From Lysobacteraceae bacterium (GTDB lineage Bacteria; Bdellovibrionota; UBA1018; JAGTJX01): a stretch of 64,000 nucleotides of DNA. The stretch is taken from the NCBI GenBank assembly GCA_023657465.1, contig JAGTJX010000001.1:772358-836357 (forward strand), read 5' to 3'. The notes beneath the pieces are model-generated. The model saw only the letters and a program-made list of their open reading frames with translations. It did no database searches and was not told where the DNA came from. The position numbers were made by a program, and so were the translations under genes. Of the stretch, positions 1 to 5,886 are shown piece after piece. The number at the start of each line of letters is the position of its first letter. Within the stretch, counting starts at the first letter, position 1.

Positions 1-802
1 AAAAGTGAATATGAGATCAGAGCGCGGAATCTGGGTGAAGAACTCACTCATGGAAGCGGAGTGGGGTGGAAAGTTTACTGTCATTAATAGCATGGCTGCT
101 CCGAGAGCTGTGGGTGAAGCCAACTTGATCCAAGGAAAGCTGTTCTTCAAAGATAGACAGTTCAATATGCTTTCTGGAAAAGTAAGTTTTGATAATCCTA
201 CTCAGATCAACCCAAGGTTTAATATTTTATCTTCTGCTGAAATTAATAGGACAAAAATTAATCTTGCAGCAAACGGAAGACTCAATGAATGGAGTTTAGA
301 TCTCACATCTAATCCTTCGTTACCCACGAGTGAAATTCTCTCACTCTTATCCATTGGATTTACTTCTGAGGAGTTGAGTAGACAAACGAATGTAAATAGG
401 TCTTCACTCAGTCAGACAGAAGCAGCGACTGTAGTTCTCAATTCACTTAACTTTAATAAAGACTTACAAAACAAAACAGGCTTCGAAGTCCAGCTCAACG
501 AAGCTCAGACGAGTCAAATCGGAAACTCAGTAACTAAACCACAAGGAACAGCAGATCTGTTTGCGTCCCCTAAGATCGTTATTCGGAGAAGAATTGGAGA
601 CCGTCTTAGTCTGAGTGTTGGAAGCACCGTCGGAGTGGGTACAAACATACAGCGGGAAGCGAACGCAGAATATCGACTGAATGATAGTTTGTCGTTTCAA
701 GGTGTGTTCAATGCGTTTGAGCAACAACAGTCAGCTTCATCTGTTTCAACTCAGCAAACATCTTATGGTGCTGATATCAAGGTCCAAAGGAGGTTTAAGT
801 GA
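1..802 (+). CDS. tamB: TamB-family translocation/assembly protein, C-terminal fragment
   Basis: Only the last 265 or so residues are in the window; the frame is open at base 1, so the gene begins upstream. TamB is a long inner-membrane-anchored, beta-rich protein that spans the periplasm and works with an Omp85 partner in outer-membrane biogenesis. The fragment shows the conserved C-terminal (DUF490) pattern: an LPTSEILSLLSIG segment, a stretch beginning ASPKIVIRRRIGD, and amphipathic strands up to the terminal QRRFK. The next gene, an Omp85 protein, starts inside its stop codon (GTGA overlap), so the two are translationally coupled. The family call is firm for the C-terminal domain; the total length is unknown. 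Confidence 0.82.
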   Translation, partial: KVNMRSERGIWVKNSLMEAEWGGKFTVINSMAAPRAVGEANLIQGKLFFKDRQFNMLSGKVSFDNPTQINPRFNILSSAEINRTKINLAANGRLNEWSLDLTSNPSLPTSEILSLLSIGFTSEELSRQTNVNRSSLSQTEAATVVLNSLNFNKDLQNKTGFEVQLNEAQTSQIGNSVTKPQGTADLFASPKIVIRRRIGDRLSLSVGSTVGVGTNIQREANAEYRLNDSLSFQGVFNAFEQQQSASSVSTQQTSYGADIKVQRRFK

Positions 803-3207
803 ATCTCCTGAAGATATTTCCTACAATTATAATAGCATTAACTTCACTCAGTTTTGCTCAAGAAACCAAGATCATCAGCGGTTATCAACTATCTCCTGCG
901 AAGAATAGTTTTCCAGGCACGAGCGAACTCCTCGATAAGTTAGATGAAAAACTCAAGCCTGTTCTTAATGTAGAAATTGGCAAAGAGCCAAGCTCAGATC
1001 GACTCATGAATTTTAAGAAGACGATTGAGAATGTAATCAATACAACAGATCGAGTGGGGGCACGAGTTGTTGATGCACAGACTATGGGTATGGGTGGTCA
1101 GCAAGTCATGCTTCAGTTCAGCATTGATTTAGGTGAGAGAGTTGAGTTTGGGTTTTTAGGTAATAATGTTTATTCCAAATCAGACCTGCAAGACTTAATC
1201 GATGAGCAGAAGCAAATTGGGTTAGGTCGAGACTACGTCGAATCTATTCGAAAAAAAATTATTTCTTTTTATGTAGAAAAAGCATTCTCAAAAATTAAGG
1301 TCAGTACTCGTACTCTGGAAAATCCAAGTATTGCCGAAAGAAAAATCATTTATGTCATAGAAGAGGGTGAGCGCCATCGTATTGGAGAAATACAGTTCGA
1401 AGGTGCAGTTGCTATTACTCAAGAGACTTTGAAGAGGAAGTTTTATGAAAACGCTCCTCCCATTATTGAAAAAGGATATTTCTCAGAGAAAGAAATCGAA
1501 AAAACTTCTCAGAATTTAGTCGAGTGGATTCGCTCTCAAGGATACCTCTCTTCGAAGCTCCTCACGGTTAAGTCAACAGTGAGAGAGAATGAAGCAATCG
1601 TCGATCTTAAAATTTATATCAATGAGGGTGAGCAGACGATTGTTCGAGCGATTCAAGTTCAAGGTAATTCCACTTTCTCTCAAGCAGAGATTCTTCAGAT
1701 GTTGGGTTTAGTAGAAGGAGCACCTCTCAATGTATTCATGTTCAATGATGGACTAGAAGTTGTGAAGCTTGCCTATAGAAACTTTGGTCACCTTGAGTTT
1801 GCTTTTACGAATGAAGGTCAGCCTACTGTGATCCAATACTCCAATAAAAATCGTTGGGCAGACATCAGTATTGAGCTCAATGAAGGCCAAAGGTTTAAAG
1901 CTGGTAATATTACGATTGAAGGAAATGAACTTACGAAAGATGAGGTCATTAAACGTGAGTTGCAATTTGACGAAGGTGAAGTACTGGAAGAACGAAGATT
2001 GTTTGAATCTGAGTCAAGACTCCGACGCTTGGGTATATTTTCAGATGTGAAAACGAAAACTATTCAGAATCCAGTGCATGCTGATGTTAAAGATGTAGTC
2101 ATTCAAGTTCAAGAAGCTTCTCGTGGACTAGCTTCTACTGGTATTGGATATCGAAACGACGTAGGCATTCGTATATTTGCTGATCTCACGTATGCGAATC
2201 TTTTTAAAAGTAACCATACTTTTGGTCTTGGAGCTTCCGTTAATCGAAGGCTGAAAAACGTAGAAAACAGGGTGAGGGATCCAGTCGAAGGTCTCGATTA
2301 CGAAGCTCGGATGAATTACACTTGGCCTTGGTTTTTGGTTCCAGAGCTATCCTTTCGTCCTGAGATTGTTCAGCGCAGATTCCATTATGAGCTCTTCAGA
2401 GATGAAACCACTCAGCTTTTAATGACGTTTGAAAAACCAATCATTAGAAAATGGGGATTATCAGCTGGACTTACCTATTCCATTCAGAGAACAGCTCAAA
2501 CAGATGCCGTGAGCACGAGTGATAATACTCTCTTCACTGTTGGTGCACTTACTCCTAGTCTGACGCTTGATCTCAGGGATTCGCCTTTGAGTCCTACTAA
2601 GGGCTTCTATGGAAACATCAGCTATGAGATTGCATCTCCTGCTTTGGGTTCCCAAGCAGAGTTTCCGGCAATCGCTTACAACCGAATTCTCACTCGTTTT
2701 GATGAGTTTATTCCCATCATGAAGTTTGCAACACTGTTCCTGAGTGTGCGCACAGGTTTTGTAAGGAACTTGATTAGCCCAAGCTCTAATCCTTCTGATC
2801 CACTTAAGGTAGGAGTTCCTCTGTTTAAGCAGTTTGCTCTTGGGGGCATTAATAGTGTGAGGGGATTCCAATTTCAGGGAATTAACATTGGAAACAAGGG
2901 AAATGGGAGTTTGACTGACTTTTCTATTCAAGGAACGCTCACGTATGTGAATTACCGCTCTCAGATTGACTTTGCGCTTTCGGAGTCTGTGAAGTTAGGT
3001 CCGTTCTTGGATGCTGCAAACTTGTTGGTCGATGAGTTCTCTTTCAATCGGAGTATGAAGTTTGGAGCAGGTATTGGACTGCGGTACATGACTCCAATTG
3101 GACCTGCTAACTTCGATTGGGGTTTCAATCTCAATCCTGAGTTTATTCCAAGAACACGGCAGACAGAGTCGTCCAATCAGTTTTATTTCTCACTCGGAAT
3201 TATTTAG
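799..3207 (+). CDS. Omp85-family outer membrane assembly protein (TamA/BamA-like)
   Basis: An 802-residue outer membrane protein expected to insert or assemble other outer membrane proteins. An N-terminal signal peptide (about residues 1-20, cut after SFA) is followed by at least four POTRA-like repeats that can be picked out by their E-G-x-x-x-x-x-x-I-x-I/V-x-G-N patterns. A C-terminal barrel follows, with the Omp85 loop-6 motif VRGF near residue 687. The start is GTG at 799 with an excellent AAAGGAGG site at 786-793. Linkage to tamB argues for the TamA role, but TamA is usually about 580 residues with three POTRAs, so the length is closer to BamA. The last residue is Ile rather than the usual aromatic residue. 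Family is certain; TamA versus BamA is inferred. Confidence 0.85.
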   Translation: MNLLKIFPTIIIALTSLSFAQETKIISGYQLSPAKNSFPGTSELLDKLDEKLKPVLNVEIGKEPSSDRLMNFKKTIENVINTTDRVGARVVDAQTMGMGGQQVMLQFSIDLGERVEFGFLGNNVYSKSDLQDLIDEQKQIGLGRDYVESIRKKIISFYVEKAFSKIKVSTRTLENPSIAERKIIYVIEEGERHRIGEIQFEGAVAITQETLKRKFYENAPPIIEKGYFSEKEIEKTSQNLVEWIRSQGYLSSKLLTVKSTVRENEAIVDLKIYINEGEQTIVRAIQVQGNSTFSQAEILQMLGLVEGAPLNVFMFNDGLEVVKLAYRNFGHLEFAFTNEGQPTVIQYSNKNRWADISIELNEGQRFKAGNITIEGNELTKDEVIKRELQFDEGEVLEERRLFESESRLRRLGIFSDVKTKTIQNPVHADVKDVVIQVQEASRGLASTGIGYRNDVGIRIFADLTYANLFKSNHTFGLGASVNRRLKNVENRVRDPVEGLDYEARMNYTWPWFLVPELSFRPEIVQRRFHYELFRDETTQLLMTFEKPIIRKWGLSAGLTYSIQRTAQTDAVSTSDNTLFTVGALTPSLTLDLRDSPLSPTKGFYGNISYEIASPALGSQAEFPAIAYNRILTRFDEFIPIMKFATLFLSVRTGFVRNLISPSSNPSDPLKVGVPLFKQFALGGINSVRGFQFQGINIGNKGNGSLTDFSIQGTLTYVNYRSQIDFALSESVKLGPFLDAANLLVDEFSFNRSMKFGAGIGLRYMTPIGPANFDWGFNLNPEFIPRTRQTESSNQFYFSLGII

Positions 3208-3233: not shown

Positions 3234-3320
3234 CAAACCTTACAAAAGTGTCAGATTCGAAGGTAGTTGTGATGTGTTAATAGCGCCAAACCTGACACTT
3301 TTGTAAGGTTTGGCGCTATT
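3234..3320. repeat. Two interlocking inverted repeats between convergent genes
   Basis: Bases 3234-3254 are a perfect 21-bp inverted repeat of 3292-3312. Bases 3279-3293 are a perfect 15-bp inverted repeat of 3306-3320, with a 12-base loop. The arms are interleaved (A, C, A', C') and A' and C' share bases, so the two hairpins exclude each other or could form a pseudoknot-like fold. The element lies between the convergent ends of the Omp85 gene and the M56 gene. It may terminate transcription from both sides, although no long T run follows either stem. A mobile repeat (REP-like) is the alternative. Confidence 0.75.
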
Positions 3321-3345: not shown

Positions 3346-4929
3346 TTAATCCAACAACTGAGGATTCTTCATAATCAGAATCGCAGCCATAAGTTTAGGT
3401 ATGTAGTTGTTGTCGTTAGTGACACCAGAATCAATAAGGCTCCAGACATCTTTTTTTCCTGTTTTTTCTATAGCCTTAGACACTGCACTCTCGCCACAGT
3501 TGTAAGCAAGGGTAGAGAGCTCCCAACTATTGAAAAGCTTGTAGTTCTTCTTGAGGTATCTCATTGCGGCGTCGGTTTCTTTTTCAACATTGAGACGCTC
3601 ATCTACATTCCCACTCACTTTCATTCCATAGTTGTTAGCTGTGGATTTGATGAACATCCAGAGTCCCGCACCATGTGCGCTGAATGAGTCTTGCCTAAGG
3701 TTTTGGTATCCAGACTCAATGAGTGGAATAGCTTTTAGTTCGCTAGGAACATTGTGCTTAGTAATTTTCGGGTTGATTACGGGCTCATGACTTTTCATTC
3801 GCTCTAAGCTTTCCTTAAAAAACTTGCGTCCCTCTGGTGTTCCGACGAAATGATTGAGTTCTTTCATTACTGAATCATTGATCGTCACCAGTATCCCTGC
3901 TCCTTGATTCGATGTGGTTGCTAGAGCCAAGGCTTCGTCTCTCGTAATTGTTCTGCTCGACGCAATGTCTTTTGCTGCTAAGGCCAGACCTGACATCGTT
4001 ACTACTCCGAGAGTGACAAGTGCTGCGCGGATAAAACTAGCGTTCCATGCTTTGTTTTTCGTTTTCATTTTTTCTATTCTCCATTTGAGGGTTTTGCCTT
4101 CCGTCATAAAGATCAATCCCGTTGCGCATACGAGAGCGTCTTCATGACTTCGAGCGGATTGTGCTACTTGAAACAAGCAGCGTGCATATGCTTGCCACGA
4201 AATTTTCTTTTGGCCTAAAAGAGCTTCGTCGCATGCAAATTCTTGAATGATAGATATCTGTTTACTCCATAGGTGAATAGCTGGGTTCCAAGCGTTGAAA
4301 ATTTTAAGAAGCTGAATTCCCCAGATAAGTTTTGTATCTCCTTGGCGATGATGCTGGAGTTCGTGAAGTGTAGAGATTTTGATTTGATCAGGGTCAGTCT
4401 GCATCGATGAAGGCAATACTGTATAAGCAGTGTTAAATCCAAAATAGGAAAATGGAATACGAATGGATTCATTCATGAGGATTCTGCAGCTACCGATTCG
4501 TTTAATGAGAAATGAATTTTTTAATATTTTATTTAAGACCAAATAGTCCCGTAAAAGCTTCAAGAAATAAAAAAAAGAGATGAGTAGTGCTAGTGAAATC
4601 AGAATGGTACAAAAGTGAGTCATGTTTCTGGGTTTATCTATTCGTATATTCTCTGAAGTAGGTCGTGCTTGGCCGGCGTAAGAAAGTTGACTGACATTTC
4701 TACTAATTGTCTGACGAATTTCAGATCTGCTAAACGGTTTAAAGAATGTTTTCTCAGGCAAGTTTGTAATTCCAATGCTCATCGCAACGGCTATAGCGAG
4801 TAAGAAATGATTCATCGCTAATTCGGACTTTGCGGTGAGGAGAGTGAAGCGCTTGTTTGTGATTCGGAGTGTGAATGAGAAAATACATCCAGAAATGAGC
4901 ATTAGATTTAATAAGAGATAAAAACTCAT
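3346..4929 (-). CDS. BlaR1-like M56 metallopeptidase fused to an MltD-like lytic transglycosylase domain
   Basis: A 527-residue membrane protein. Hydrophobic segments lie near residues 1-20, 42-57 and 107-125, followed by an M56 peptidase domain with the zinc motif HELQHH (189-194) and a downstream E230/D234 in QEFACDEAL. A further hydrophobic segment lies at about 300-318. The exported C-terminal part (about 360-527) is an SLT/MltD-type domain with IPLIESGY (likely catalytic E405), AGLWMFIKSTANNYGM and AYNCGES motifs. In BlaR1/MecR1 the C-terminal sensor is a penicillin-binding domain; here it is a peptidoglycan lyase domain. The gene overlaps blaI by 4 bases, so the pair is co-translated. 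Inference: a cell-wall-damage sensor whose peptidase inactivates the BlaI repressor. Confidence 0.85.
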   Translation of the reverse strand: MSFYLLLNLMLISGCIFSFTLRITNKRFTLLTAKSELAMNHFLLAIAVAMSIGITNLPEKTFFKPFSRSEIRQTISRNVSQLSYAGQARPTSENIRIDKPRNMTHFCTILISLALLISFFYFLKLLRDYLVLNKILKNSFLIKRIGSCRILMNESIRIPFSYFGFNTAYTVLPSSMQTDPDQIKISTLHELQHHRQGDTKLIWGIQLLKIFNAWNPAIHLWSKQISIIQEFACDEALLGQKKISWQAYARCLFQVAQSARSHEDALVCATGLIFMTEGKTLKWRIEKMKTKNKAWNASFIRAALVTLGVVTMSGLALAAKDIASSRTITRDEALALATTSNQGAGILVTINDSVMKELNHFVGTPEGRKFFKESLERMKSHEPVINPKITKHNVPSELKAIPLIESGYQNLRQDSFSAHGAGLWMFIKSTANNYGMKVSGNVDERLNVEKETDAAMRYLKKNYKLFNSWELSTLAYNCGESAVSKAIEKTGKKDVWSLIDSGVTNDNNYIPKLMAAILIMKNPQLLD

Positions 4930-5315
4930 GCCCTCTCCTTATCTGAGATCATTTTTTTGATCGATTCGAGATCTTCATCGGTGAGGTCAACGCTACTGAG
5001 GAGCTGTTTCACTAGGGCAGTAGGTGTTCCATCGAAGACTTTGTTCACTACGTGTTGGACGGTTTTGGCTTCGTAATCTGACTTGGAGAGGAGGGGAATA
5101 TAAGTATGACCTCGTCCTTCTTTCCTGCTTTTTAACACCCCTTTTTGCTCCAAGATGCGCAGGATCGTAGAAACAGATGTGTAGGCGAGTTGTCTATCGC
5201 TAGGTAGGGTCTCAATCACATCAGCGACCGAGCCCTCCTTTATCTTCCAGATAGAATTCATGAGTTCGAGCTCAACTTCGGTCAGTAGCTTTCCGGTGGT
5301 GGTTTTCTTCGTCAT
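4926..5315 (-). CDS. blaI: BlaI/MecI/CopY-family transcriptional repressor
   Basis: A 129-residue winged-helix repressor typical in length for BlaI/MecI. The N-terminal half has the family pattern ELELMNSIWKIKEGSVADV, followed by the recognition-helix region AYTSVSTILRILEQKG. The C-terminal helices would dimerise. It overlaps the M56/transglycosylase gene by 4 bases, as in bla and mec systems where the sensor protease cleaves the repressor. Two perfect palindromes (5326-5341 and 5349-5364) and a TTGACT-N17-TTCAAT promoter lie immediately upstream, so self-repression is expected. The ATG lies 6 bases after the -10 element with no spaced Shine-Dalgarno site, suggesting a leaderless message. The regulated genes beyond this locus are unknown. 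Confidence 0.9.
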   Translation of the reverse strand: MTKKTTTGKLLTEVELELMNSIWKIKEGSVADVIETLPSDRQLAYTSVSTILRILEQKGVLKSRKEGRGHTYIPLLSKSDYEAKTVQHVVNKVFDGTPTALVKQLLSSVDLTDEDLESIKKMISDKERA

Positions 5316-5321
5316 ACCCTT

Positions 5322-5350
5322 ATTGAACTAAGGTTTTAGTTCTTAGTCAA
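5322..5350 (-). promoter_or_regulatory. Promoter of the blaI-M56 operon
   Basis: On the minus strand, TTGACT (5350-5345), a 17-base spacer and TTCAAT (5327-5322) lie just before the blaI ATG at 5315. Operator 2 overlaps the -35 element, and operator 1 covers the spacer and touches the -10 element. Transcription would start at or within a few bases of the ATG. Confidence 0.6.
5326..5341. promoter_or_regulatory. BlaI-type operator 1
   Basis: Perfect palindrome AACTAA-N4-TTAGTT, 16 bp, with the same half-sites and spacing as the neighbouring palindrome. Its position over the blaI promoter and next to a BlaI-family gene make it the likely repressor site. Confidence 0.75.
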
Positions 5351-5364
5351 CTAAATCTTTAGTT
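5349..5364. promoter_or_regulatory. BlaI-type operator 2
   Basis: Second perfect AACTAA-N4-TTAGTT palindrome, centred 23 bp from the first (about two helical turns). This would let two BlaI dimers bind the same DNA face. It lies toward the divergent gene at 5392, so it may also control that gene. Confidence 0.75.
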
Positions 5365-5391
5365 TGAGTAAAGACGAAGAGGAGTTGACAA

Positions 5392-5886
5392 ATGGCTGAA
5401 CGCGTTATATTTGTTCATCCCATGAAAATAATCACTTTAGTAACAGGCCTTTTACTCACAAACATCTGCCTCGCAGCTACTGCAGAGACATTCTATCGTC
5501 TCGATGACACTACCATCGCAGGAATCACTGCGGATTTCACAGCGGTAGAATGTGAAGAGGAAAAGAGTGAATACAACACAACATATACTTCTCATTACGT
5601 AGTGAGTGTTGAAGTTGCTAGTTACCCAAAAAACATTATTGCGAAGTTCCCATTCGTATTCAGAGATCATTCAACGACATGTGCAGCGGTAAAAAAGCGT
5701 GTGAGAGATTCTGCTCAGCCTTTATTCAGAAGAATTTCTCAACTTCAAAGAGGCGATATTCACTCCGTGACTTCAGAAGGCACTTCTCGAATCTGCTCAA
5801 AAAACGCTTTAGACATTACAGTCGATTCCGAAGGTCTTGTGATCTCACAAGAAGAAGTTTCGTTATCAGCTGCTTGTCCTAACTAA
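5392..5886 (+). CDS. Secreted protein of unknown function, divergent from blaI
   Basis: A 164-residue protein I do not recognise. A signal peptide is visible (MKIITLV... ending ICLAATA) after a 10-residue leader. ATG 5392 is chosen because it has a GAGGAG site with 7-base spacing, whereas the internal Met at codon 11 has none. The mature part has cysteines at CEEE, TTCAAV, RICSKN and AACPN, consistent with two disulfides in the periplasm. It shares the operator region with the blaI-M56 operon, so co-regulation under wall stress is plausible but inferred. Its stop codon overlaps that of the convergent agmatinase-family gene. Confidence 0.7.
   Translation: MAERVIFVHPMKIITLVTGLLLTNICLAATAETFYRLDDTTIAGITADFTAVECEEEKSEYNTTYTSHYVVSVEVASYPKNIIAKFPFVFRDHSTTCAAVKKRVRDSAQPLFRRISQLQRGDIHSVTSEGTSRICSKNALDITVDSEGLVISQEEVSLSAACPN

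Follow-up and report, generated by a model that had tools for sequence, protein, structure and literature searches.

A BlaI-type repressor operon encoding a BlaR1-like M56 protease with a C-terminal lytic transglycosylase domain of the MltD type

Near the start of the window, by which we mean the whole 64,000-nucleotide stretch of Bdellovibrionota DNA analysed, two overlapping genes on the reverse strand encode a BlaI repressor and a BlaR1-like M56 protease fused to an MltD-type lytic transglycosylase, an assignment far beyond chance. The features of this cassette, in coordinates of the window, are as follows.

4926–5315, reverse strand: blaI, first gene of the operon, a BlaI/Penicillinase_R winged-helix repressor of 129 aa
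3346–4929, reverse strand: the M56–SLT fusion, second gene of the operon, 527 aa, assigned by PF05569 and PF01464, a structural model, a fold search and a PDB profile search
4348–4365, reverse strand: zinc-protease motif HELQHH, residues 189–194
4240–4242, reverse strand: E230 in the second zinc-ligand motif, QEFACDE
3439–3762, reverse strand: SLT lytic transglycosylase core, residues 390–497, predicted to be periplasmic, with a Pfam and an MltD match
3715–3717, reverse strand: Glu405, predicted to be the catalytic residue of SLT, in the motif ESGY
5349–5364, reverse strand: operator O1 (distal), AACTAAAGATTTAGTT, an exact dyad conserved 5' of blaI across phyla
5326–5341, reverse strand: operator O2 (proximal), AACTAAAACCTTAGTT, 23 bp from O1 and conserved likewise
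5321–5350, reverse strand: inferred promoter, read by eye, with a -35-like TTGACT (5345–5350) overlapping O1
5321–5326, reverse strand: weak -10-like TCAATA overlapping O2, after an 18-nt spacer from the -35-like hexamer
3234–3320, no strand: hairpin region of nested inverted repeats on the 3' side of the operon, before a convergent bamA-like gene

The two reading frames of the operon share four bases (ATGA). Pfam places BlaI in PF03965 Penicillinase_R (E 1.5e-30) and finds two domains in the fusion protein, both above the curated cut-off: Peptidase_M56 (PF05569) at residues 82–285 (E 3.1e-16) and SLT (PF01464) at residues 390–497 (E 3.3e-21). Partial matches below the NCBIfam cut-off, to murein transglycosylase D and to BlaR1, each fall in the expected half. 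Residues 368–523 match Pseudomonas aeruginosa MltD by phmmer (E 2.5e-19), and a family profile of 52 relatives searched against solved structures recovered P. aeruginosa MltD (8rhe, E 3.5e-34) and Staphylococcus aureus BlaR1 (8exp, E 1.2e-20), again in the halves where they were expected. An AlphaFold model of the protein (52-row input alignment; mean pLDDT 84.6) predicts four long helices at residues 2–28, 33–55, 101–137 and 297–323 in a BlaR1-like placement, giving a predicted membrane bundle of four helices in which TM3 and TM4 flank the protease, as in BlaR1 and MecR1. With this model as query, Foldseek ranked MltD first (E 7e-8) and BlaR1 second (E 2e-5), with a TM-score of 0.66 to the BlaR1 TM-plus-protease chain 8exr_A; 8exs was also matched. 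In the alignment, H189, E190, H193, E230, D234, E405 and S406 are invariant in 52/52 full-length relatives, and the AYNxGE motif is present in the SLT part. A class-D-like penicillin-binding sensor domain is absent, the C-terminus being instead a PF01464 domain with the MltD fold; the protein stops after it, and Pfam detects no LysM repeats.

An earlier note, made from the letters alone, had described an intact M56 peptidase with the motif HELQHH and a C-terminal MltD-like SLT domain that keeps its catalytic Glu and occupies the position of the BlaR1 penicillin-binding domain. All three statements are borne out by the invariant residues and by the agreement of Pfam, PDB profile and AlphaFold/Foldseek, and the SLT fold that the note expected a structural prediction to place at residues 360–527 is indeed found there, the model matching MltD. 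The stretch singled out in the note ends at 5364 and includes both operator dyads (5326–5341 and 5349–5364). A loop motif between TM2 and TM3, FxPxAKVWS, was considered as a docking site for the SLT domain and set aside, as it is seen in only about half of the relatives.

Two perfect dyads, AACTAA-N4-TTAGTT, precede blaI and overlap its putative promoter; this predicted operator takes the place of the TACANNTGTA-type dyad of BlaI/MecI repressors. A tandem operator with 22 or 23 bp spacing was found at 64/66 named SLT-type loci, allowing at most three mismatches in 24 defined positions, and the two exceptions lack upstream DNA at a contig end. None was found in composition-shuffled controls. 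Many of the 64 loci are related to one another and do not represent 64 independent events, though several phyla are spanned. Promoters read by eye are clearer in relatives, for example TTGACA-17-TATAAT at locus L170; in these, the right half of each dyad overlaps a promoter hexamer, the -35 at the first dyad and the -10 at the second, and operator spacings of 22 and 23 bp correspond to promoter spacers of 17 and 18 nt. Since the dyads overlap both the -35 and the -10 elements, bound BlaI should block the promoter. In the window the predicted transcription start falls almost at the blaI start codon, and a generic consensus promoter scan of the window reported no site at blaI.

The surroundings of the cassette can be described briefly. 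The hairpin at 3234–3320 contains inverted repeats of 24 nt (96%) and 19 nt (95%), folds with -41.3 kcal/mol (z -7.3) and is possibly a bidirectional terminator; elsewhere in the genome its core motif, CCTGACACTTTTGT, has a single further copy, which is intergenic as well. Beyond it, the end of a TamB-like gene (5–802, forward strand) overlaps by four bases an Omp85/BamA-like gene with POTRA domains (799–3207, forward strand). On the other side, a divergent gene (5392–5886, forward strand) starts 28 bp from O1 and encodes a small, probably exported protein with no Pfam match. It could be co-regulated in this genome; it is not a conserved neighbour at other loci.

The full fusion occurs in 11/58 genomes of the class, the remainder showing ordinary SLT/MltD-type proteins only, and in 49/369 genomes of the phylum when copies cut by contig ends are counted; many Bdellovibrionota metagenome assemblies carry relatives. 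A single-sequence scan of genome contigs gave no match, and the relatives beyond the phylum came from a profile search with M56 only. These belong to the Myxococcota (Myxococcus, including Myxococcus xanthus, Corallococcus, Archangium, Hyalangium, Pyxidicoccus and Citreicoccus), the Acidobacteriota (Sulfidibacter and Acanthopleuribacter) and the Gammaproteobacteria (Steroidobacter). The earlier note's mention of Bdellovibrio-type genomes was thus too narrow, as the fusion extends beyond them. Across phyla the fusion proteins share about 30–40% identity and the overlapping gene order is kept, with BlaI encoded directly 5' of the M56–SLT gene at every locus with enough sequence. One truncated copy of the fusion is present in genome G012, and an apparently split gene in G269 proved to be an assembly gap with runs of N. 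A plasmid search with the M56 half returned only distant M56 proteins of about 30% identity, with no sign of plasmid carriage. The cassette in the 9-Mb record of Comamonas sp. KCTC 72670 (L222) falls inside Myxococcus/Pyxidicoccus in the tree with strong support, and this genome is probably mislabelled or contaminated. A stand-alone copy of the SLT domain, linker included, is encoded in genome G162 (L124:5784–6476, reverse strand; 230 aa) behind a hydrophobic start resembling a signal peptide, and the surrounding 12 kb contain neither an M56 nor a BlaI gene. The existence of such a secreted copy suggests that the SLT domain probably works as an enzyme.

What, then, does BlaI control? In the 2.83-Mb genome to which the window belongs, the exact dyad occurs only as O1 and O2. 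Operator sites with one mismatch are no commoner than background, and sites with up to two mismatches number 173 against 496 for the reversed pattern. The surroundings of the one-mismatch sites gave no coherent gene set from which a hidden regulon could be drawn. Pattern searches, which sites more degenerate than the pattern escape, gave no tandem pair beyond that of the cassette in this genome or in 48 other genomes with the fusion; stray single sites in the latter numbered about 10, compared with about 70 for the reversed-pattern control. In the draft genomes G044 and G335 the tandem pair lies on a contig separate from the broken cassette, and in G010 on the contig bearing the missing blaI, while G119, G272, G275, G280 and G368 are examples of diverged dyads missed by the exact pattern. 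The own locus was also the only site in the 8–14 Mb genomes of Myxococcus xanthus, Hyalangium, Archangium, Citreicoccus, Corallococcus and Steroidobacter, for which the looser pattern AACTA-N6-TAGTT was used as well. The sole second target found is in Sulfidibacter corallicola, where a second tandem operator (L254:4641–4679) lies 5' of a polysaccharide deacetylase gene (4848–5831, forward strand), possibly a wall-modifying gene. Two other operator-like sites were attributed to chance, one (genome G032, contig C45) being a single copy overlapping open reading frames and the other (Acanthopleuribacter, contig C35) a degenerate single copy within a gene.

Gene neighbourhoods gave a similar picture. 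No neighbour besides blaI and the M56–SLT gene is conserved in 65 loci, and a third apparent cluster in this comparison was the reverse-strand shadow of the M56 reading frame. Neither a beta-lactamase nor a mecA or low-affinity PBP target was found among the neighbours or at tandem operators in the own genome. Judged by these sequence searches, the evident regulon of BlaI would be its own operon. Since no other target of the repressor is evident, the most likely reading is that the transglycosylase acts as sensor and output alike. The coupling of wall cleavage to gene control that the earlier note had suggested thus gains indirect support, the sole detectable target being the operon itself.

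The same M56 profile also recovered proteins with C-terminal domains other than SLT alone: a PF00905 transpeptidase, an M23 endopeptidase, SLT followed by M23, and TonB_C. Transpeptidase-type BlaI–M56 cassettes, in which the C-terminus is a complete penicillin-binding transpeptidase, are found at L125–L134, L198, L200, L203, L214 and L243, with nine examples in the tree; their tandem operator is CTACTA-N6-TAGTAG, located only at the own locus in 10/10 genomes tested. Four genomes (G146, G176, G334 and G368) carry both an SLT and a transpeptidase cassette. SLT and M23 are combined in one M56 protein at L137:3640–5559 (reverse strand) and L186:4992–6533 (forward strand), and the type with an M23 endopeptidase but no SLT, found in SAR324, is represented by L201:4533–6032 (forward strand). 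Two gammaproteobacterial loci (L215 and L219) encode BlaI–M56 proteins ending in TonB_C behind an AACTAA-type operator. A tree built on the M56 part groups the proteins by domain type: the 62 rows require four changes, as few as there could be, and the SLT rows are separate from the types with transpeptidase, TonB or M23. Its deep branches are weakly supported.

We propose that the M56–SLT cassette is a self-contained, autoregulated cell-wall switch in which one protein serves as sensor, signal transducer and output, a reading to which we give about an even chance. BlaI dimers on the two dyads would cover their own promoter and keep the operon almost off. Homology and the model suggest that the few M56–SLT molecules present would be anchored in the inner membrane, with their zinc protease on the cytoplasmic side and their MltD-type transglycosylase on the periplasmic side. 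The signal would arise as the SLT domain binds or cleaves its substrate, for which the most plausible candidate is accessible, uncrosslinked glycan of the sort that builds up under disturbed wall synthesis. By analogy with BlaR1, from which the membrane topology, the transmembrane signalling and the cleavage of BlaI are all taken, movement through the transmembrane bundle would activate the M56 protease, which would then cleave BlaI. The derepressed operon would make more transglycosylase until the substrate is cleared and fresh BlaI represses it again. Lytic transglycosylase activity is likewise expected from the enzyme family. The catalytic residues are invariant across phyla, which indicates that catalysis is kept for use, and the exchange of M56 partners for other wall enzymes would be expected if the enzyme is the output. 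Against a switch that acts only on itself, the second tandem pair in Sulfidibacter means that the regulon can be larger there, and a wall cutter that induces itself could end in uncontrolled lysis if nothing held its activity in check.

The standard logic of BlaR1 and MecR1 would instead make the protein a pure sensor, with an SLT domain that binds glycan or muropeptide, catalysis being irrelevant, and a BlaI that acts through weaker sites on unlinked genes for resistance or repair. The polysaccharide deacetylase of Sulfidibacter with its own tandem pair would suit this arrangement, as would the PBP-type sister cassettes, in which M56 can carry a likely beta-lactam binder. However, the lack of a second tandem pair in the own genome or in 48 relatives, the background frequency of one-mismatch sites in the own genome and the invariance of the catalytic residues across phyla all make it unlikely. 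A different arrangement, and one to be taken seriously, is product sensing, where the SLT domain is only an enzyme. The cell would import and trim its anhydro-muropeptide products, and the resulting peptide would either bind BlaI or be finished by the M56 domain, so that BlaI leaves the DNA. Binding of a wall-derived dipeptide to BlaI/MecI has been published, gamma-D-Glu-m-A2pm having been proposed to bind BlaI in Bacillus licheniformis (PMC3305447), and a fragment-producing enzyme fused to the transducer would fit such a two-signal model. Yet the fusion would be unnecessary for it and is nevertheless kept across phyla, and cleavage of BlaI by BlaR1/MecR1 is independently supported in S. aureus (reviewed in PMC7593790), leaving product sensing quite improbable. 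Finally, the C-terminal domain might be a vestige or an accident in a BlaR1 relative and have lost its function. This reading, which the patchy distribution in the class and the truncated G012 copy might favour, is exceedingly improbable and already contradicted by the invariant HExxH and SLT Glu residues, the intact operators and the overlapping gene order held at such low identity across phyla.

The self-contained switch may have a wider counterpart. In a general BlaI–M56 class, an exported wall enzyme, be it a glycan cutter, a cross-link cutter or a cross-linker, would be both sensor and only output, each type with a private operator code; we hold this tentatively, at just under an even chance. 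As part of this one reading, the codes would be AACTAA..TTAGTT for the SLT type and CTACTA..TAGTAG for the transpeptidase type, matched by a Ser/Ala and Arg/Lys change in the BlaI recognition helix, so that two such systems could coexist in a single cell. The recognition-helix region of BlaI reads VSTILRILE in the SLT type and VATIMKILE, or near it, in the transpeptidase type; this difference is a correlation only and would be fitting for two insulated circuits. For the TonB_C cassettes a non-enzyme output would need another explanation, and their use of the AACTAA-type operator suggests that proteins of this kind do not have to end in an enzyme.

Several known systems share parts of this arrangement. 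BlaR1–BlaI and MecR1–MecI (S. aureus and B. licheniformis; cryo-EM structures 8exp–8ext) have in common with it the M56 zinc protease, four TM helices, an exported C-terminal domain, a cognate BlaI-type repressor and tandem dyads over the promoter. They differ in having a class-D-like penicillin-binding domain in place of the lytic transglycosylase, whereas here blaI comes first and the operator core is ACTA-N6-TAGT with AA/TT flanks. With MltD (P. aeruginosa; 8rhe, 8rhf and 8rhi) the protein shares the SLT fold, the catalytic Glu, the AYNxGE motif and a helical lead-in segment; unlike MltD, it is anchored by the M56 membrane bundle, is without LysM repeats and has its expression under its own BlaI. 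M56–M23 proteins also join M56 to a wall hydrolase, in their case an endopeptidase, and are described in a review as a rare M23 architecture with an unexplained role (PMC9662197). The CopY/CopR copper repressors belong to the same repressor superfamily and likewise use two operators that occlude -35 and -10 (PMC7253601); unlike the BlaI–M56–SLT cassette, they respond to metal via Cys-X-Cys, bind the operator TACANNTGTA and have no partner protease. A search of the open literature, with most subscription papers outside it, returned no paper on the M56–SLT fusion or its operator. The fusion may well appear among the domain architectures listed by protein databases.

BlaR1 and MecR1 have been studied as antibiotic sensors, and here a widespread relative bears an exported wall enzyme of predicted activity, its own operon being the only evident target. 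This suggests that wall homeostasis may have been the original role of the BlaR1-type module, or one to which it was put anew. The cassette is small, has a defined operator and occurs in culturable non-pathogens such as myxobacteria, which makes it open to experiment. If the general class holds true, BlaR1 would be a specialised member of a wider BlaI–M56 class.
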